Virus record (IMG/VR): IMGVR_UViG_3300006920_000161
Coordinates: 1-29,528 of that record
Reading direction: 5' to 3' (one strand)
Source of the DNA: a virus
DNA: 29,528 bases
The position numbers and the translations under genes were made by a program. Below the pieces are notes generated by a model. It did no database searches, was not told the origin of the DNA, and saw nothing but the letters and a program-made list of their open reading frames with translations. Shown here in pieces: positions 10,381-27,512 of this stretch; position 1 is the first letter of the stretch; each line of letters begins with the position of its first letter.

Positions 10381-11538
10381 TTAATTCCTTTTATATTCTA
10401 GTAAACTAAATCTTATGGCGGCAACAGTAGCATTTGTGTCTGTATCCGCTGTAAAATAAAGTACATCCGCAGGCGATAGCTTAAAGCCGATAGGAGGTTC
10501 AACTATAACAGTATTTTCAACTCCTGTGTCAATAACAGTTCTAAATACTTCAAACCTAGTATTTATCAGTCGATTGTACACATATCCTTTTATGCTCACT
10601 CGTGGAGATCCACCGCCCGAAATTTTGTTTACATTTAGCCATATATCTTTAGCCACACCATCACTGTTAGCGTCGACATGAAATATCGCTTGCTGAGTCA
10701 CTGACCCCAGAGCGGGGAGCCCTGCCTGAATAGTTCCTGCCCCGGTTGATGTAACCGATATAGCGTTAGTATTCCACGTAGCACCACCGTTGGACGATAC
10801 CGCTATTCTATTTATCCCAAGGCCTGTAAATGACGTCACATCTGTGCCTGTATCGCCTAATGTATGCACGGTCGCAGCCGCTAAACCATCAGCGTCTATG
10901 TATTGAATATATAAAGTCAGTGCCCCTGTTGTGCCGAGCCCATCAGTTGTTGCGTTATATGCGATAGTAAAGGTGCTTGCTACGGTCATCGGCGTGAAGT
11001 TACCAGTAGAAGACCAAATGGTCTGCTCTCCTGATGCTGCAAGTAAGTCGTCTCTATATCCGAATTTGGAAAAATGGGTTATTCCGCCCCTTCTTCCGAT
11101 AAGGACCTCGTCAGTAAAATCTGTAATTCTTGTCGCGGTAGCGTCAGAGTCTAGCCCTATCGATTGATTTAATGGTGCATTAGATGGCACAAAATGATTT
11201 CCGAAATATGTATATAGCCTTAAATAAGTTTGGTCAGATCCTGAATTATTTTCAAATCTTACTCTGAAATATCTTCCTAACTTTACGCCTGTATGAAATT
11301 CATGAACACCGGCAGCAACGTTAAAGCCGGTCGGAGGAAATACGGAGTCCCAATCTCTTCCGTTGCCAGAAAATTCCGTATAAAGAATGCCTGATTGGTC
11401 TGTTTTTAAAGATACGCCGAAATGAGCATGGCCCGACTGTTCGCCTCGCCCTGTAAATTCGCCACCATCAATTAATTCTGTTTCTGTGCAGTTGTAATCG
11501 GCCGATATTGTAGCGTCGACGCGTTCCGGTAATGTCAT
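10381..11538 (-). CDS. Beta-rich virion structural/receptor-type protein
   Basis: A 385-residue protein of mostly Thr, Ser, Gly, Asp and Val with alternating beta patterns and no transmembrane or catalytic motif. It starts MTLPERVDATISADYNCTET, has a GDTGTDVTSFTGLGINRIAV repeat-like centre, and ends with a jelly-roll-like region (SIKGYVYNR, EVFRTVIDTG, FKLSPADVLYFTADTDTNAT). I associate this C-terminal pattern with tail or virion proteins of marine-type phages. It overlaps the upstream zinc-ribbon gene by four bases and is transcribed against the surrounding virion genes. Likely an appendage or receptor-contact protein (inference). Confidence 0.65.
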   Translation of the reverse strand: MTLPERVDATISADYNCTETELIDGGEFTGRGEQSGHAHFGVSLKTDQSGILYTEFSGNGRDWDSVFPPTGFNVAAGVHEFHTGVKLGRYFRVRFENNSGSDQTYLRLYTYFGNHFVPSNAPLNQSIGLDSDATATRITDFTDEVLIGRRGGITHFSKFGYRDDLLAASGEQTIWSSTGNFTPMTVASTFTIAYNATTDGLGTTGALTLYIQYIDADGLAAATVHTLGDTGTDVTSFTGLGINRIAVSSNGGATWNTNAISVTSTGAGTIQAGLPALGSVTQQAIFHVDANSDGVAKDIWLNVNKISGGGSPRVSIKGYVYNRLINTRFEVFRTVIDTGVENTVIVEPPIGFKLSPADVLYFTADTDTNATVAAIRFSLLEYKRN

Positions 11539-11939
11539 ATTTTACCTTTTAGGTGGTCGGCTTCTCTTGAGTCTAAAGAAATGCCTTGCTTAGTGTAAAT
11601 CTTTCTTAAAACTTCGTCAGTAAAGTATTGAGTAGGGGCCTCTTCGTTTTCGGGAAGTTCGTCATACCCTATTTCTATTAAGCCCATTCTTTTTAATTCT
11701 GCTTTATATTGCCCATAAGTGGCGCAGTGTTTTCTTATGTTCGGCTGGTATCCCGGTTGAAAACCGTCTTTTGCAAGCTTGCCCGACTTCATTGTGATCA
11801 TCTTGGGAAATCCGCAATTATAACAAGCGATGCCCGGTACTGGACCATATTGCAATTTGTCGAACTCTTCTGAGCTGAACGGGCGGAGAAACTCACCGCC
11901 ACATTTCTTATTCCTACATTTGAGTCTATAACTTTGCAT
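11535..11939 (-). CDS. Zinc-ribbon protein paired with the minus-strand virion gene
   Basis: A 134-residue protein with an N-terminal zinc ribbon (CRNKKC at 8-13, CYNC at 39-42), a basic DGFQPGYQPNIRKHCATYGQ segment and an acidic C-terminal helix. A similar zinc-ribbon gene beside a structural gene between terminase and portal is a pattern I recall from podovirus genomes, function unknown. No SD precedes the ATG; CATTAT lies seven bases upstream, so this may be another leaderless start. It forms a two-gene unit with the following minus-strand gene. Confidence 0.6.
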   Translation of the reverse strand: MQSYRLKCRNKKCGGEFLRPFSSEEFDKLQYGPVPGIACYNCGFPKMITMKSGKLAKDGFQPGYQPNIRKHCATYGQYKAELKRMGLIEIGYDELPENEEAPTQYFTDEVLRKIYTKQGISLDSREADHLKGKI

Positions 11940-12062
11940 ATTTCATATAATGCACTCGATTATCTTTATCTATAGATTTTATCCGTAAGTACGAATGTGG
12001 AGCTGTATTAATGAATTAATAATTTAGACTAACGGTGTTATTGATTTAAAACGGATAATACT

Positions 12063-14054
12063 ATCGAAAATTCAGAAGATGAAAAGCCAATTCAAATCGT
12101 TAAGTCTGTAGAAAGAGAGCTTAATAAGTATCTCTCTCAATTTAAAAAAGGCTGGACCGAGGAAGAGGATATTTATTACGGTGATATTTGGAGCGGTGGC
12201 GAGCATAAGCCTTTCGTAAACGAGTGTTTTCCTATTATCGAGGGCGAGGTTCCGGTTTTAACCGATTCAATGTCTAGCGTTGTGGCAAATCCGGAAGATG
12301 CGCAATATGAGCAACAAGCAAAAACGTTAGCTAAATCAATTGAGTGGGTACTTAAAAAAGAGAAATTTTCAGTTAAGTACCCTCAAGTTATAAGAAATTC
12401 CCTAATTGCGGCTCCTGGATTCATTTATATTGATTACGATATTAATGGAGATAGGGGAAATGGTAGAATCGGGATTGAAATCGTTCCTTGGCAACAAGTA
12501 AGGCTTGATGGAAATGTCTCATTACTAGAAGACTCAGAGAAAAATCAAATTGATCTTTATAAGCGTAAAAATTGGCTCAAAGTCAGATATCCGAAATATG
12601 CCGAAGAAATTGACAAAATGAAGGCCAAAGACGGCGGAAAAGATGACGATTCTCAAAGAGGTTTAGAGACTCAAGACATCGGCGGTCGCCATAAGAGGCG
12701 AAGACCTCAAAGACACATGGCCGAGGACATTCTTAAACTTCAAATTACGTATACGAAAGACGCGACGCTTGAAGCTATTCCTGACGAAGTAACAATGGCA
12801 GAGCTTGAAAAAGAGCGAGAGACCTTAAAAGAAGGCGAAGGCGCGGACGTAAATATTTATCAGAATCACGAAGCACATATGGAAGATCATTTCCAGATGG
12901 CCGCACAACTTAAGGCGGTTGTTGAACTACCTCCAGAAGCAACATTTGAGCAAGTTGAGCAAGTAGTTAATCAATTAATGGAAGAAAATCCCGAAGCCAA
13001 AGAACTGGCTGAAGGTCTAATGTTATTAAAAATAATCGAAAATCACATAGAAGAACATGTGACTCTGCAAAAAGAAAATCCTAAAGGAGGACGACTAAAA
13101 TATCCCGGCGGATGGCGGGTGCTAGAATCAATACAAGATAAAGTTTTATATGACGGTGCAAGTAGATATGAACACAATGAATTTCCAGTAGTTCCTTTCT
13201 ATTGTTACAAGGACAATTCTATTTATGGGTTTTCAGAAATGAGAAACTTGGTGGATCCTCAACGTATGCAAGCGGTCATGGAATATAAAGAATACAAGGG
13301 CCTTCAAAAGGTCGCTAATCCTAGCGTGGCAGTTTTTAAAGATTCTGGACTAACTAAAGATGATGTGACGAATGAGGACGGTGCAATATGGGAAATTAAC
13401 ATGGGCTCAAAGCCGCCCACTCATATACAGCCTGGTCAAGTATCCGAACAGGTTTCACGTTTTTCTCAAAAGAAATCAGACAAGATGCGCGATATTTCAG
13501 GAGTCAACGAAGCGACTCAAGGAAAAATGCCGTCGCCAAATGCAAGTGGTGTTTCATTAGAAAGAATACAGACGCAGGCAATTGGAAGAATACGTCTCAA
13601 GGACCGTTTAAACGAGCATTACAGCGTTAAAAGAATGGGAACGCTTATTGCTTCAAACATTGTCCAGTTTTGGACGACAGAGCGAGTCTTGAAGCTTGAA
13701 GACACGCCAGAAGGTAAACAGCAATTAATGTTTAATCCATTAGAAATGGAAGACTTAGAATATGAAATCGAAATAGCTCCAGGCTCAATGGCCGGTGTAG
13801 ATAAAGGGGCATATAACACAATGCTTCTAGGTCTCATGAATAGCCAACAAATTACATTAGAGCAATTTCTCGAAGTCGCAGAGATTCCAAAAACTGACAA
13901 ATTAAAAGAGCTTGTTTCTACTGAAAAGCAAAAAGCAGAGCAAATGCAAGCACTCCAAATGGAAAATTTACAATTGAAATCACAACTAGCTCCAGAATCA
14001 TTGAGTGACGAGGAATTAGAATTATTAGAATCCAGTAATGAGGGAGCCAATTAG
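12063..14054 (+). CDS. Portal protein (P22-type), apparently AUC start
   Basis: The head-tail connector ring through which DNA is packaged and ejected. From ATC 12063 the product is 663 residues, near the size of P22-type portals. Family-like parts: an N-terminal GDIWSGGEHKPFVNECFPII region, LIAAPGFIYIDYDINGD, IVPWQQVRLDG, a charged helical insertion (about residues 245-345), YDGASRYEHNEFPVVPFYCY, DPQRMQAVMEYKEY, and RFSQKKSDKMRDISGVNEAT. The C-terminus is a long helix. No ATG, GTG or TTG occurs in frame between the upstream stop at 12042 and ATG 12270, although the intervening codons clearly read as protein. CGGAT at 12052-12056 could be the SD for ATC 12063. Starting at 12270 would remove about 69 residues. 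Confidence 0.85.
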   Translation: MENSEDEKPIQIVKSVERELNKYLSQFKKGWTEEEDIYYGDIWSGGEHKPFVNECFPIIEGEVPVLTDSMSSVVANPEDAQYEQQAKTLAKSIEWVLKKEKFSVKYPQVIRNSLIAAPGFIYIDYDINGDRGNGRIGIEIVPWQQVRLDGNVSLLEDSEKNQIDLYKRKNWLKVRYPKYAEEIDKMKAKDGGKDDDSQRGLETQDIGGRHKRRRPQRHMAEDILKLQITYTKDATLEAIPDEVTMAELEKERETLKEGEGADVNIYQNHEAHMEDHFQMAAQLKAVVELPPEATFEQVEQVVNQLMEENPEAKELAEGLMLLKIIENHIEEHVTLQKENPKGGRLKYPGGWRVLESIQDKVLYDGASRYEHNEFPVVPFYCYKDNSIYGFSEMRNLVDPQRMQAVMEYKEYKGLQKVANPSVAVFKDSGLTKDDVTNEDGAIWEINMGSKPPTHIQPGQVSEQVSRFSQKKSDKMRDISGVNEATQGKMPSPNASGVSLERIQTQAIGRIRLKDRLNEHYSVKRMGTLIASNIVQFWTTERVLKLEDTPEGKQQLMFNPLEMEDLEYEIEIAPGSMAGVDKGAYNTMLLGLMNSQQITLEQFLEVAEIPKTDKLKELVSTEKQKAEQMQALQMENLQLKSQLAPESLSDEELELLESSNEGAN

Positions 14055-14080: not shown

Positions 14081-15133
14081 ATGTTTACGATTAAGAATTT
14101 TATTAACTTATTGAGCTATGTTTTAAAAGACCAGGCGGGCAACTTCGAAATCGGAGATCCGACAGATTATAGCAACGACGAGTTTTTAAACGGTGATTCG
14201 GACGATTCGGATACTACTGACAATTCAGAAAGTGATAGTACGCAGTCGGAAGGCCAAGCAGAAAACGCGGAAGAATTAACGGTGGAGCAACAATTGGACG
14301 CGATGGAAAATGGCGAACCTGTTGCAAGCGAGGGTGGAGACAAAGGACTTTTAGACTTAGTGAACTCTCTTGGGTTGATTGATAATGGACTACCTTTCGA
14401 GCTAGAAAATGAAGAATCGATCCGTGAGACAATTATGAAAGGTCATAACTACACTCAAAAAACTATGGCACATGCAGACGCTGTAAAAGCGTGGGAAGAG
14501 AGTCGGACTGCTCAAGAAAGTGAATTTTCACAAGAACGAGAAGCCTTTGAAGCTGAGAGATCAGGGCACCATGAGTTATTACAGGAAAACAGAATTATTG
14601 GAGAGATTTTACCTCAAATTAAGGAAAATTACCCCGATGTTTTTCAGGAAATTACTCAGGCCTATCAGCAATCAATGAATCTTTACAAGCAGGCTATAGA
14701 TAATCCTCTACTACAGAAACAAAATGAGCGAATGAGCGCATTAGAGAAGCAGTTAGAGGCGAAAAATTCTCAAGAAAACGAAAGCGCAAAGGAGCGGATA
14801 CGTTCTGAGTGGGATAGTGGATTGGGAGAGGTTCAAACTAAGTGGGGCGCAAAGCTTAAAACTTTAGGAATCTCGCCGAAATGGGCAGATGTACAAAACA
14901 CATGGCAATCTGACGCCTCACAGAAAATGACGGTGCAGGGTGCTTTAATGAGTCTTTACGGAGATCAAATAGCCAAAGGGCTAAGCTCACAAAAGAGGCT
15001 CGCAACAACTAAAGCAAATTCGACGGCTAGACAGGGCACACGTTCCGGTAGTCAATCAACAGAGCCTAAAAAGTCAGTCTATAGGGGTGACGAGTATATG
15101 CAAGCGTTGAACGCATTTGCTGATAAACTTTAA
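14081..15133 (+). CDS. Capsid scaffolding protein
   Basis: A 350-residue protein between portal and major capsid, the usual place for a scaffold. It is highly charged, with an acidic disordered part (residues 25-70, rich in Asp, Ser and Glu), long helices (REAFEAERSGHHELLQENRI, LQKQNERMSALEKQLEAKNS) and a basic C-terminal tail (TRSGSQSTEPKKSVYRGDEY) suited to binding capsid protein. It should direct procapsid assembly and then leave or be degraded. Odd: it opens with a hydrophobic stretch (KNFINLLSYVLKD) matching the start of the capsid protein. SD AAAGG. Confidence 0.8.
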   Translation: MFTIKNFINLLSYVLKDQAGNFEIGDPTDYSNDEFLNGDSDDSDTTDNSESDSTQSEGQAENAEELTVEQQLDAMENGEPVASEGGDKGLLDLVNSLGLIDNGLPFELENEESIRETIMKGHNYTQKTMAHADAVKAWEESRTAQESEFSQEREAFEAERSGHHELLQENRIIGEILPQIKENYPDVFQEITQAYQQSMNLYKQAIDNPLLQKQNERMSALEKQLEAKNSQENESAKERIRSEWDSGLGEVQTKWGAKLKTLGISPKWADVQNTWQSDASQKMTVQGALMSLYGDQIAKGLSSQKRLATTKANSTARQGTRSGSQSTEPKKSVYRGDEYMQALNAFADKL

Positions 15134-16250: not shown

Positions 16251-16769
16251 ATGAAAAATTTAGTATTATTAGCTCTTTTTGGCCTTATCGGTCTTATGAG
16301 CATGTCGGTCACAATGGCAGATGTTGGGCCAGTTGGTCGAGGAACGTCTTTTACTGGAGCAGGAGCTTTACAGGCCGGTTCAGGTGAAAAATGGTTTATT
16401 AATGTTGTAAATCAAACAACCGCTTTCGCTGACGGTGATGTTGCGACAATTGATTTTGGAAATGATGACGGTTATTCGGTTTCAAGTTCAACGACTGCTG
16501 GCGCGGTTCCAATGTGTATCATGGATGAAGCTTGTGCGGCCGGTGCTACTTGTAGATGTCAGACCTACGGACTTAAAACTAACGTAAATTTTGACGTAAC
16601 GGGAGCGGAGTCCAGTGCTGGTGGTCTAGTGTTTATCTCTGAAACTACTGCTGGAAGTGTTCAGGCGACGGCTCCGGGGTCAATTGCTGGACTAGATACT
16701 CCAATTGGGATGTTTTACGACGGCGTTTCCGCAACGGGCGACGCTGAAATTTTTATCAAGTTAAGATGA
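16251..16769 (+). CDS. Head decoration-like protein with a Sec signal peptide
   Basis: 172 residues, directly after the capsid terminator, SD GGAG. The N-terminus is a typical signal peptide: MKN, a hydrophobic LVLLALFGLIGLMSMSV core, and a likely cleavage site TMA/DV at residue 23. The mature part is small, Gly, Ala and Thr-rich and beta-like, with a four-Cys cluster (CIMDEACAAGATCRC) and an ending (TPIGMFYDGVSATGDAEIFI) of the type seen in head decoration or fibre-head proteins. Role inferred from place and composition. A cleavable export signal on such a protein is unexpected. Confidence 0.65.
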   Translation: MKNLVLLALFGLIGLMSMSVTMADVGPVGRGTSFTGAGALQAGSGEKWFINVVNQTTAFADGDVATIDFGNDDGYSVSSSTTAGAVPMCIMDEACAAGATCRCQTYGLKTNVNFDVTGAESSAGGLVFISETTAGSVQATAPGSIAGLDTPIGMFYDGVSATGDAEIFIKLR

Positions 16770-17911
16770 ATCTATTCGGTTTATATTGGGGCGCGGTTTC
16801 GATCGCGCTCCCTGTATTTATAAAACTTGGCGGTCCTCACCCGGTTAGGTATTCGAAAGATTTCTTTTTCGGTTTCGCTGTCATTTTATCACTGGTCCTT
16901 TTCGGAATGAAAAAGCACAAGAACCTTGCTTTATACTTAACGAGCGGTTTTTTTATAATCGTTGGTTTTATAAATCAATATTCTTTCGCTAGTGTTGGTG
17001 TCCAGTTTCAGTTTCATATGATGTGCGCTGGAATCGTATTGCTCAATCAGATGGTAGGAAACACCACAAAAGAAGACATAATTTACATTAAAAGAGGTTT
17101 GGCGGTTTCGTGCATAATTCAATGTGCGCTTGTCTGCATAAGCTTTCTCGGTGTTGATCTTTACAGATTATCACTGGAATATATCTTCAATGCTAGGACT
17201 CTAGATAACGACCTAAGGCCGTTTACTGCGGTTCTTAAAGGATTAGGCTCACTTGGAAATAAAGGCATTGCAGGGGCGTTTATAGCCTCGACATTACCCT
17301 TTTTATTTAATGGTAAATTTAAGTGCTTTATTCCCTTGTGCTTATGCGGTTTAATACTTACAGATTCAGCGATACCTATTCTTGCCACAGGATGCGGCTT
17401 GATAGTCTATTTCTATACCAGAGTGTTGAGAAGGCGGTATTTTTATCACCTTCTCACACTCTCGGCCATAGGCGTGGCGTTGATTGCTCACGCTTCGACT
17501 AACGCGGGGTTTTTCAGTGCAAGCGGAAGGCTAGAAACATGGCACAAGGCAATTGTATTTTTAGGAAAAAAGGATTTTCTTTTTGGTAAGGGGCTAGGCT
17601 TTGTGCATGATAAATATCAACTATTCAGTCAAGACGGTTTAAAAATGCTTCAATTGCACAATGAATATTTAGAAATATTGCTCGCTTTCGGAGTGTTAGG
17701 CGTCTTTATGTGCATATGGTTTTTTATGATTAACAAAAATAGAATTTTGACAAATGACACACATTTCTTAATTTCACTAGCAATTACGGCAGGCGTTTCT
17801 GTCGGGTGGTTTAATTTGCATATCACATCAACGGCTTTGGTCGGAATTATGGCACTGGCCATATTAATACGGGGTAAATCATGTCACGAACTTGGAACCA
17901 TAAGGCTCTAA
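16766..17911 (+). CDS. O-antigen ligase/polymerase-like (Wzy_C type) membrane protein
   Basis: A 381-residue polytopic inner-membrane protein with about nine or ten hydrophobic segments. Motifs of the O-antigen ligase/polymerase family appear in order: GSLGNKGIAGAFIASTLPFL (161-180), a periplasmic-loop-like SGRLETWHKAIVFLGKKDFL (252-271) with GKGLGF, and HNEYLEILLAFGVLG (298-312). The family joins or polymerises lipid-linked glycans on the periplasmic side. In a phage it could change host surface glycan and block superinfection (inference). It is coupled to the preceding gene by ATGA and overlaps the adaptor by 31 bases, so it is firmly part of the virion operon. Codon use looks like its neighbours. 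Confidence 0.75.
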   Translation: MNLFGLYWGAVSIALPVFIKLGGPHPVRYSKDFFFGFAVILSLVLFGMKKHKNLALYLTSGFFIIVGFINQYSFASVGVQFQFHMMCAGIVLLNQMVGNTTKEDIIYIKRGLAVSCIIQCALVCISFLGVDLYRLSLEYIFNARTLDNDLRPFTAVLKGLGSLGNKGIAGAFIASTLPFLFNGKFKCFIPLCLCGLILTDSAIPILATGCGLIVYFYTRVLRRRYFYHLLTLSAIGVALIAHASTNAGFFSASGRLETWHKAIVFLGKKDFLFGKGLGFVHDKYQLFSQDGLKMLQLHNEYLEILLAFGVLGVFMCIWFFMINKNRILTNDTHFLISLAITAGVSVGWFNLHITSTALVGIMALAILIRGKSCHELGTIRL

Positions 17912-18939: not shown

Positions 18940-20834
18940 TGCCACAAGCACTAAGAAAAGTACAAAAATGGAAACTATGGAATATGCCGGTTTCTTATAA
19001 TATTCTCGACCAAAAAAGGATGGCCGACTGTTCAAACGCTTGCACTATTCAGAAAATTCTACAAACAAGACCAGGCACAAGCAGATGGAACGCAACGGCA
19101 ATAAGTGCCGATGAAATAATGTCTTTGTCTTTTTTCACAAATAATGCCGATGCCGATTTTGTCATAAGCAAGTCGGGGGCGAGTATCTTCAAGGTTCCGG
19201 CAACGGGAGCGAGTACAGCACTAAAGGCAGGGTTAACGAGTACGACAAAACACAGGGCCGTAACATTTAATGGTAGACACTTTTTAGCAGTCGAGTCGGA
19301 CGGGCTGTACTCATACGACGGAACTACTTTTTCCCAACTTGGCCAAGTGCCCCCGGCGACAGGCTCAGAAGCCTTAAGTTCTGGTGGGTCGTTAACTGAC
19401 ACTAATACTTATCAAGTAGGATTAACCTTTTATGATTCGACAAATGGTTTCGAAACTAATATTTTTGGTTTAGATCAATCGGTAACCGCTAGCCCTAATT
19501 TACAAATAGACGTTTCAAATATTCCGGCGACAGCGACAAACGGAAATATCGATAAAGTTAGGATATACTTAAAAGATGTGACCGCCGCGGGAGATTACTT
19601 GTTTTTCGCAGAAATTAACCTAGGGACCACCACATATACCGTAGATTCTGTTCCGACAAGCACAAGTACACCACCGACAAAGAACGCACCACCCCTGGCG
19701 GGCGGAGCTAAATATTTAACTATGTTTGGAGACAGGTTAGTTTATTCAGGAAATTCTAATTTTCCTTCTGACGTATTTTTCTCAGAAATATATATACCCG
19801 ACGCGTGGGACGATACAAGTTCCCGAGTAGTACTTACTGGTGCGGGGAACGGACCTATTACGGGACTGGCGACAGGGTTTTATGGTTCCGACAATATGGA
19901 TCCTTATCTATGTATCTTTAAGAGAAATTCAGTCGAGGTTTATTCAGAATTAGGCGGAATCAAAAGGCAGTCTCTGATCTCTCCAAATATCGGCGCACCT
20001 AGTCAGGACACAGTACAAGTAATTAATGGAGATGTTCATTTCATGTCCACAAAAGGCTGGCATGTTATTTCAAACGGTAACCTGATTAAAAAAGATCGAA
20101 GAGTTTACAATCTCGGAGACGGCGACGTGGATAACATATTTAATGATGATGGGTTTACTTACGCTTTAAATAAAAGCGAGATGAGTAATTTTAAGAGCAT
20201 TTATTACCCTACTTTGGATCAATACATTACCTTTATAAAAGAATCCGGATCAACAAATTCCTTCAAGGCTTATAATTTTGAGTTTAATATTAACGGATTT
20301 AGGACTTATGCCTTTCCTTTAAATATCATTGACGTTGCTATGGGCGAAGATTCGGCGGGCGAGACAACAGCTTTTTTTGCCACAGAAGGCGGCTTTGTGA
20401 TGAAACATAACATCGGAGAAGCGAAAAGCGATACATTGTCCGATAACACGACTCAAGCAATAAGTGTATTCGGCAATTTTTACTGGATATCTGGCGACGA
20501 TATGGACGCAACTTTTAATTTTGGCGAATTTATAGCGAGAGCGTTGAGAAACGATAACTTAATTCAGTTTAATTACTATTTAGATTATAAATATGACATT
20601 CAAACTAATGAAGATTTCGACTTCACGGAAGGGGCGACAGGTTTTACTCTTGATGTGTCAAAATTAGACGAAGGTATACTTTCGGACGGGCGAAATGTAG
20701 TCAGACACGTAGGTTCTATTTATAAAACGTCACAAAGTTTATTAATCACCTTTAATCATGAAGTGTCAGGCTCTAATATTAACTTTATAGAAGCACAGTT
20801 AGACTTCTCGAAAAATGGAAACCCAAATGCATAA
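18939..20834 (+). CDS. Tail stopper/hub protein, probable beta-propeller
   Basis: 631 residues, beta-rich with repeating blade-like units: FFTNNADADFVISKSGASIF, FNGRHFLAVESDGLYSYDG, FGDRLVYSGNSNFPSDVFFS, CIFKRNSVEVYSELGG, NGDVHFMSTKGWHVISNGN. This arrangement and its place after the adaptor match podovirus tail stopper (P22 gp10-like) proteins that close the portal channel and bind the fibre. Residues about 147-250 hold the GGSLTDTNTYQVGLTF beta domain shared with the adaptor. The C-terminal 130 residues (NFYWISGDDMDATFNFGEFI) are another beta region. The end overlaps the next gene by eight bases. Confidence 0.75.
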   Translation: MPQALRKVQKWKLWNMPVSYNILDQKRMADCSNACTIQKILQTRPGTSRWNATAISADEIMSLSFFTNNADADFVISKSGASIFKVPATGASTALKAGLTSTTKHRAVTFNGRHFLAVESDGLYSYDGTTFSQLGQVPPATGSEALSSGGSLTDTNTYQVGLTFYDSTNGFETNIFGLDQSVTASPNLQIDVSNIPATATNGNIDKVRIYLKDVTAAGDYLFFAEINLGTTTYTVDSVPTSTSTPPTKNAPPLAGGAKYLTMFGDRLVYSGNSNFPSDVFFSEIYIPDAWDDTSSRVVLTGAGNGPITGLATGFYGSDNMDPYLCIFKRNSVEVYSELGGIKRQSLISPNIGAPSQDTVQVINGDVHFMSTKGWHVISNGNLIKKDRRVYNLGDGDVDNIFNDDGFTYALNKSEMSNFKSIYYPTLDQYITFIKESGSTNSFKAYNFEFNINGFRTYAFPLNIIDVAMGEDSAGETTAFFATEGGFVMKHNIGEAKSDTLSDNTTQAISVFGNFYWISGDDMDATFNFGEFIARALRNDNLIQFNYYLDYKYDIQTNEDFDFTEGATGFTLDVSKLDEGILSDGRNVVRHVGSIYKTSQSLLITFNHEVSGSNINFIEAQLDFSKNGNPNA

Positions 20835-21909
20835 AATACTTAAATTGATATTATTAATGGCCGTTGTCGTGGCAATGGGAGTTTTTAGTAAATCCCACGC
20901 CGGAACATGTACGGCAGATACTTACACCTCTAATAGTGCAAATTCCGTCTTAACATCTTCTAAATATAATTCCGATAATACGACAATCTACAACCGATTA
21001 AACGGAAATCTTGACGGTGGTTGTGTAGTTGATGGAACCGTCGAGGCGGCGGCCTTAAACACAACAGAGTTTTCAGCATCATTAAACGCAATAAAAGAAG
21101 GGTGCACACTTTCTAAATCTGACGCTAATACTATCGCCGTTGATAAATGCATTATGACTGTGAATGGTTTTAATATAAAAACAACCTCCGCGAATACTGT
21201 CACGTGGGGAGACAATTCAGGATCTTCCGAAGCGGCAAGTACGACATATTATGTTTACGTTTTGACGGGATCAACAGGAACCACTTTAAATTTATCATTA
21301 CGAACAACCGTGCCAAATAATGACGGTTACGACGCTAGTTCTAATAAGGTGATTGGAAGGATTCAAAACGACGCATCTAGCGATATTTCGGACACTTTTC
21401 AAGATTGGTCTAACGGCAGATTTTTAGGCTATACAGTAAAAGGCGTTGTAAGCATTTTTGACGAGAAGGCGAATAATACAGCGGGTGGCACGGCCACAAC
21501 AGGCGGCTGGATAATTAGGACTCTTAATCAGACGTCTGGCGACCTTGGGGCGCTGGGCATAACTCTTGCGACTAATGTTTTTACATTACAGCCTGGTCGC
21601 TACAGAATATGGGCGCGTGCACCGGCTTATCGAGTTAACACGCATCAAATAAGGCTTTATAATACCACCGCCGCCGGAATAGCTACGGATACGGACGGTA
21701 ATAGCGTGATAGGCTCGTCAGTGACATCGATAGCCTCAATGCAAATGGACTCGGTTATCGATACGGTCATTGATGTAACGACGGCGTCGGGATTTAGGAT
21801 AGATCATCAAGTTCAAACGACTTTCGCGACCACTGGTTTCGGGGTAGCAACGTCATTTACTGCGACACAGGAAATTTTTACACAAGTAAGGATAACGGCT
21901 TATGAATAA
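20827..21909 (+). CDS. Tail fibre-like protein with a Sec signal peptide
   Basis: 360 residues from ATG 20827, chosen over ATG 20815 because GGAAA lies five bases upstream. A clear signal peptide (HKILKLILLMAVVVAMGVFS then KSHA/GT) is followed by a helical, Asn/Thr-rich part and a C-terminal jelly-roll-like domain (RFLGYTVKG, NVFTLQPGRYRIWARAPAYR, THQIRLYNTTAAG, FTATQEIFTQVRI) of the type at the ends of phage fibres. It likely contacts the host surface. A signal peptide on a fibre in a virion operon is unusual, since virion proteins assemble in the cytoplasm. Confidence 0.7.
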   Translation: MHKILKLILLMAVVVAMGVFSKSHAGTCTADTYTSNSANSVLTSSKYNSDNTTIYNRLNGNLDGGCVVDGTVEAAALNTTEFSASLNAIKEGCTLSKSDANTIAVDKCIMTVNGFNIKTTSANTVTWGDNSGSSEAASTTYYVYVLTGSTGTTLNLSLRTTVPNNDGYDASSNKVIGRIQNDASSDISDTFQDWSNGRFLGYTVKGVVSIFDEKANNTAGGTATTGGWIIRTLNQTSGDLGALGITLATNVFTLQPGRYRIWARAPAYRVNTHQIRLYNTTAAGIATDTDGNSVIGSSVTSIASMQMDSVIDTVIDVTTASGFRIDHQVQTTFATTGFGVATSFTATQEIFTQVRITAYE

Positions 21910-22237
21910 ATTATTTATTATAGGAGTTTTTCTATTCTCGTTTAATGTTTTTGCGAATCAGGCGAGAATTGATGCAATCAGAGATTTCGACCACGCCGCA
22001 GCCTTGGCGGGCTCCTTTAATTCGGCATTGGCTAAAAAGAAGATACTGAAAGGCGACACGGCACTGCTTATTTTAATAGAGTCTAAGGTTGCCGAAGTTG
22101 AGGCTTTTAAAACAAAGCAAGACGGCGAAGAGTTGGAGCTAGAGCAAACACGGGCGGCGATTAAGAATATATCCGACCCGACTGTACGCAAAGCACTAAG
22201 AAGAATATTTAAAGATTTGTATTTTAAAAGGAACTAA
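21902..22237 (+). CDS. Small exported protein of unknown function
   Basis: 111 residues with a strong signal peptide (MNKLFIIGVFLFSFNVFA/NQ, cleavage after VFA). The mature part is helical and charged (AEVEAFKTKQDGEELELEQT), perhaps a coiled coil. It overlaps the fibre-like gene by eight bases. Third gene of this operon with a signal peptide. No function assigned. Confidence 0.6.
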   Translation: MNKLFIIGVFLFSFNVFANQARIDAIRDFDHAAALAGSFNSALAKKKILKGDTALLILIESKVAEVEAFKTKQDGEELELEQTRAAIKNISDPTVRKALRRIFKDLYFKRN

Positions 22238-27011: not shown

Positions 27012-27512
27012 CTATTGGGTATAAGTCTTTAAAATTTTACTTACATTCTCTTGAGTTGTTCCGATCATTTCGGCTATGTCGCTTTGACTGTACATGTTTA
27101 TGGATAAGCATTTTATCATCGGATACCACTCTCTTTTAATTTTAAGATTTCTATCTTTCAGGTGGTTGGTGTTTGCAAGGCCTGTTTTATGCGCATGGAT
27201 CATATTTTCTTTATGGGTAACAAGCTCAAGATTATCTATGCAATTATTGGCCTTATTCCCGTCGATATGATTTATCTCCATTCCGCTTGGAATGTCTTTT
27301 CTTTTAATTGTAGACCAGACCAGTCTATGGACATACTCTGTCCTATAAACACCTTTCGATTTCGTCATAGTGGTTCTGAGATACCCTTTTTTATCGGGGT
27401 AAGATTTTTTCGGCGCACCATTATTATATTTCTTATAGGAAAAAATATTTCCCTCTCTGTCTATATTGTACCCCGCGTAACCCCTAATTCCTTTCTGTCT
27501 TAATTTTGTCAT
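27012..27512 (-). CDS. NUMOD4/HNH homing endonuclease
   Basis: 166 residues. Residues 11-48 match NUMOD4 (GYAGYNIDREGNIFSYKKYN, KKGYLRTTM). Residues 60-105 match HNH_3 (YVHRLVW, EINHIDGNKANNCIDNLELV, THKENM) with the catalytic His82 and Asn90 region intact. Residues 141-163 form a helix-turn-helix (YSQSDIAEMIGTTQENVSKI) for target binding. AAGGAG precedes the start. It is inserted as a free-standing gene between the lysis cluster and the next minus-strand genes, converging with the lipoprotein gene two bases away. Such enzymes promote their own spread between phages. Confidence 0.9.
   Translation of the reverse strand: MTKLRQKGIRGYAGYNIDREGNIFSYKKYNNGAPKKSYPDKKGYLRTTMTKSKGVYRTEYVHRLVWSTIKRKDIPSGMEINHIDGNKANNCIDNLELVTHKENMIHAHKTGLANTNHLKDRNLKIKREWYPMIKCLSINMYSQSDIAEMIGTTQENVSKILKTYTQ

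Follow-up and report, generated by a model that had tools for sequence, protein, structure and literature searches.

The window analysed here, the whole of a linear virus record of 29.5 kb, is a single entry in IMG/VR; features of its portal region lie on the + strand unless stated otherwise. A frame scan showed that the portal frame opens after the TGA at 12042-12044, as the first-pass annotation had stated, and stays open until the stop codon 14052-14054 (12045-14054, stop to stop, 670 codons with the stop). Its product is a genuine P22-like portal. The protein matched PHROG 156 (E=5e-32, from residue 37, at about 12153) and Pfam P22_portal (PF16510; E=2e-24, 86.3 bits for a curated cut-off of 26.1), and a Foldseek search with its structure model retrieved solved portals, the best being the Pan3 portal (E=3e-11), together with many P22, SU10 and PaP3 chains. 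A remote sequence match also ties it to a solved portal. The likeness to this family thus holds in profile, over most of the length, and in fold; identity to cultured phages is very low and, unlike other P22-like portals, the frame opens without ATG, GTG or TTG. Confidence in the structure model is moderate (pLDDT 67) and low over residues 34-68, for which reason no argument about the N-terminus draws on it.

The portal gene is followed by a gene in scaffold position and then by the major capsid gene, the latter identified through its PHROG match. Between them, the gene at 14081-15133 holds the same place in relatives and is called scaffold by position only. Next to the portal lies a divergent gene (11535-11939, - strand), found in the frame list and conserved at the loci of most relatives; because it is divergent, translational coupling from upstream was rejected. 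A 385-residue protein encoded at 10381-11538 (- strand) is 65% identical to a protein of relative L022 and 55% identical to one of L009, where the gene has the opposite strand relative to the portal; matches in other relatives were weak or not found, and this comparison suggests that it is perhaps a mobile or swapped gene. Within the head-tail cluster, 16766-17911 (+ strand) encodes a membrane protein matching the Pfam O-antigen ligase family (Wzy_C, E 2e-12) and keeps its place in L007, L009, L010 and L011; it may perhaps serve in surface-sugar alteration or superinfection exclusion. Three other proteins of the structural cluster (16251-16769, 20815-21909 and 21902-22237, + strand) have apparent N-terminal signal peptides, as judged by eye, which is odd for virion proteins. 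An HNH endonuclease gene (27012-27512, - strand; Pfam HNH_3, E 6e-15) probably encodes a free-standing homing endonuclease.

The first ATG, GTG or TTG of the portal frame is ATG 12270-12272, 75 codons in and inside a conserved TDSM. The claim that no such codon precedes it was confirmed by the frame scan, and the missing canonical start is real and exceptional. Indeed, among the sense-strand genes of the window only the portal has a gap this long before its start, and across 418 kb of related contigs none of 194 complete stop-to-stop ORFs of at least 250 codons had a gap reaching 40 codons, the largest being 37.

Near relatives were reached via the capsid gene, and then with portal profiles and with the terminase. 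The closest, L007, is 66% identical across the portal. The main alignment comprised 16 relatives, and the portal N-terminus was read in 43 relative records (about 40 distinct); their start codons were set by rule, taking the first ATG ahead of the conserved stretch, a few having two candidates. No relatives were found in GTDB genomes and no close relatives among GenBank phages, and searches of IMG/VR with peptide patterns and a degenerate DNA pattern found no near-identical copy of the window.

In the comparison with L007, the stretch ahead of ATG 12270 (12066-12269) showed 63% identity and a pN/pS of 0.41, values close to the 67% and 0.27 of the remaining portal gene, with changes in excess at third positions. 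Its residues also align in every one of the 16 relatives in the main alignment. These comparisons indicate that the 69 residues ahead of ATG 12270 are real protein under purifying selection, so the natural start is not ATG 12270. A shortened portal begun at this first canonical in-frame codon is thus very improbable: it would drop, as had been anticipated, all 69 conserved residues, among them those lined up with the relatives' PYEN..F.IIE.EVPILTDS, and the codon has no good SD (-2.4 kcal/mol).

Where the gene begins can be read from the same alignments. In relatives at 66-35% identity, the initiator Met coincides with ATC 12063-12065 or lies no more than about 20 codons from it, in some up to about 20 codons earlier. 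That of L007 is one residue off in the alignment, and an internal Met in L009 and in L010 stands at exactly the same distance from a [KN]PI motif (KPI/NPI) as the ATC. The residues from 12063 on therefore form a genuine portal N-terminus, as the first-pass annotation had proposed with just such an alignment as the check, and by homology the portal gene starts at 12063 or only a few codons away. A second candidate near-cognate codon, ACG 12051-12053, has no usable SD in our scoring and suits the spread of N-terminal lengths among relatives about as well as the ATC does. It had also been stated that no upstream frame has a usable start, and indeed none offers an obvious one without an indel. ATG 12079 was rejected, being out of frame and followed by a stop ten codons on.

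The portal may be started by true near-cognate initiation, with fMet placed at AUC 12063 (less likely at ACG 12051) at low efficiency and aided by a GGA; we rank this reading slightly below a one-base fault of the record. It draws on the agreement of ATC 12063 with the Met spacing in L009 and L010 and with the L007 initiator, on the conserved coding sequence with no canonical start upstream of it, on an otherwise clean record, and on the GGA 7 nt upstream of the ATC (GGATA 12053-12057, GGA at 12053-12055). AUC has, moreover, been mentioned as an occasional bacterial start (PMC10191623), and an ATC start in E. coli reporters gave measurable output, although the values were inconsistent even within one paper (PMC6925171). 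The window portal shares with known near-cognate-start genes (E. coli infC and pcnB, AUU; S. aureus infC and ccpN, AUA, and cvfC1, AUU; Y. pestis RcsD-Hpt, AUU) a long conserved frame with a near-cognate codon at the expected start. The natural non-canonical starts described in S. aureus are, however, conserved ones with an extended SD (PMC13009471), whereas here the odd start occurs in one record and the SD is weak. The CGGAT that had been noted at a normal SD distance is there, but its weight was overstated: the anti-SD pairing of the GGA (-3.3 kcal/mol) is equalled or bettered at 34% of arbitrary window positions, and in most window genes the value is -5 to -6 kcal/mol or better. The relatives begin the portal with ATG in 38 records, GTG in 4 and TTG in 1, so that none of the 43 records has a non-canonical start and the window alone is without a canonical one. 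No tRNA gene was found in the window, which also disposes of a phage-encoded initiator-like tRNA as a helper for AUC. A riboswitch or structured leader was likewise rejected, with no Rfam match and a leader folding no better than shuffles. All together, the position proposed for AUC initiation fits, while its use, which had been called probable, finds no support in canonical relatives, a weak SD and published odd starts that carry extended SDs. For the same reasons, the proposal that an AUC start keeps the portal dose low cannot describe a trait of the family.

The portal ATG of the 16 relatives has essentially no SD, L007 being the only exception (AAGGAA), and at the same loci the SD medians are strong for the scaffold (-5.4 kcal/mol), the capsid (-7.1 kcal/mol) and the next head gene (-6.9 kcal/mol). 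In 13 of the 16, a TANNNT ends 5-8 nt before the portal ATG, where Markov simulation of the sequences would give 2.6, and other ATG frames of these loci show one in 8 of 121 cases; these SD-less portal AUGs are found in L009, L010, L011, L014, L018, L020, L023, L024, L026, L029, L035, L037 and L038. The pattern was spotted by eye in this first set before counting, and the independent test is a set of 27 further loci, where it recurred in 11 (4.1 expected), strong in closer relatives and absent from many distant ones. TANNNT before the start is the published signature of leaderless bacterial (TA-led) genes (PMC3160421), which the relatives' portals resemble in both the 5-8 nt spacing before AUG and the lack of an SD. 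This likeness suggests that the portal mRNA of most closer relatives is probably leaderless and heads the head operon. Leaderless translation in E. coli shows a strong preference for AUG (PMC9031893).

Unlike TA-led genes, the window has no TANNNT about 6 nt before the ATC, the only ones lying 32 and 37 nt before it. With its box 32 nt away, the window portal would not be leaderless at ATC 12063. The predicted -10 box of the portal promoter is TAGACT 12025-12030, the best site in the stretch that separates the divergent gene from the portal (score 4.5, the next -5.0) with a PWM that was built from 13 sites and performed only moderately in leave-one-out trials. Relatives have a conserved TTCC..GAA element some 32-41 nt ahead of their -10 box, and TCCGTAAGTACGAAT (11982-11996) resembles it. 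Transcription is thus predicted to start at ~12037, leaving a leader of about 26 nt before the ATC. GATAAT 12054 was rejected as a promoter for a leaderless AUC, the box being just 3 nt from the codon. We do not claim that L007 shares the -10 position of the window: a TANNNT is present there at 32 nt, but the PWM does not pick it.

Since most closer relatives begin the portal 5-8 nt past the -10 box, the start might instead be an earlier codon of another frame, close to where transcription is predicted to begin, with an indel before 12063, in the record or in nature, splitting the frames. GTG 12035 and TTG 12041 do stand in another frame close behind TAGACT. However, that frame stops at 12047-12049, no coding similarity was seen upstream of 12063, and L007 and the window may just have longer leaders. 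We consider this arrangement improbable, and it is partly a special case of a base departure in the record.

The most likely reading, by a small margin over AUC initiation and with a probability of roughly 0.5, traces the missing start to one altered base in this single metagenomic record. That base, anywhere from the promoter to ~12063, would not match the functional gene, either because of a sequencing or assembly error or because a rare defective variant was sampled from the population. The phage itself would then start its portal at a canonical codon, like all examined relatives, and the missing start would be a trait of one contig. Such a fault accounts for all observations. It is favoured by the canonical starts of the 43 relative records and the lack of any startless case among the 194 long ORFs, by the ATG of L007, with its AAGGAA SD, one residue away in the alignment, by the weakness of the window's SD-like GGA, and by the status of the window as a single linear record for which no second copy was found. 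On the other hand, none of the other window genes compared with relatives is frame-shifted or truncated, giving no sign of a high error rate, the chance of striking just this codon is low, and the ATC, itself near-cognate, has a GGA suitably spaced ahead of it. These weights rest on our own prior estimates of how often assembly errors and natural AUC starts occur.

The portal is the DNA-entry ring of the head, present in roughly twelve copies. It is conceivable, though on balance unlikely, that this phage starts an essential structural gene at AUC, within a clade of unusual (leaderless, SD-less AUG) head-operon starts, so that little portal would be made from an mRNA that carries strong ribosome sites for scaffold and capsid. 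If AUC is used, the phage would provide a natural example of an essential virion protein relying on such a start, and of a neat means to set the portal dose. If it is not, the case is a warning that one base is enough to conceal where a key gene of a metagenomic phage begins and to make gene callers cut off 69 real residues. The portal starts of the relatives, SD-less and apparently leaderless, may matter more than the missing start of the window, and offer a testable idea for how the portal dose is kept below the capsid dose.
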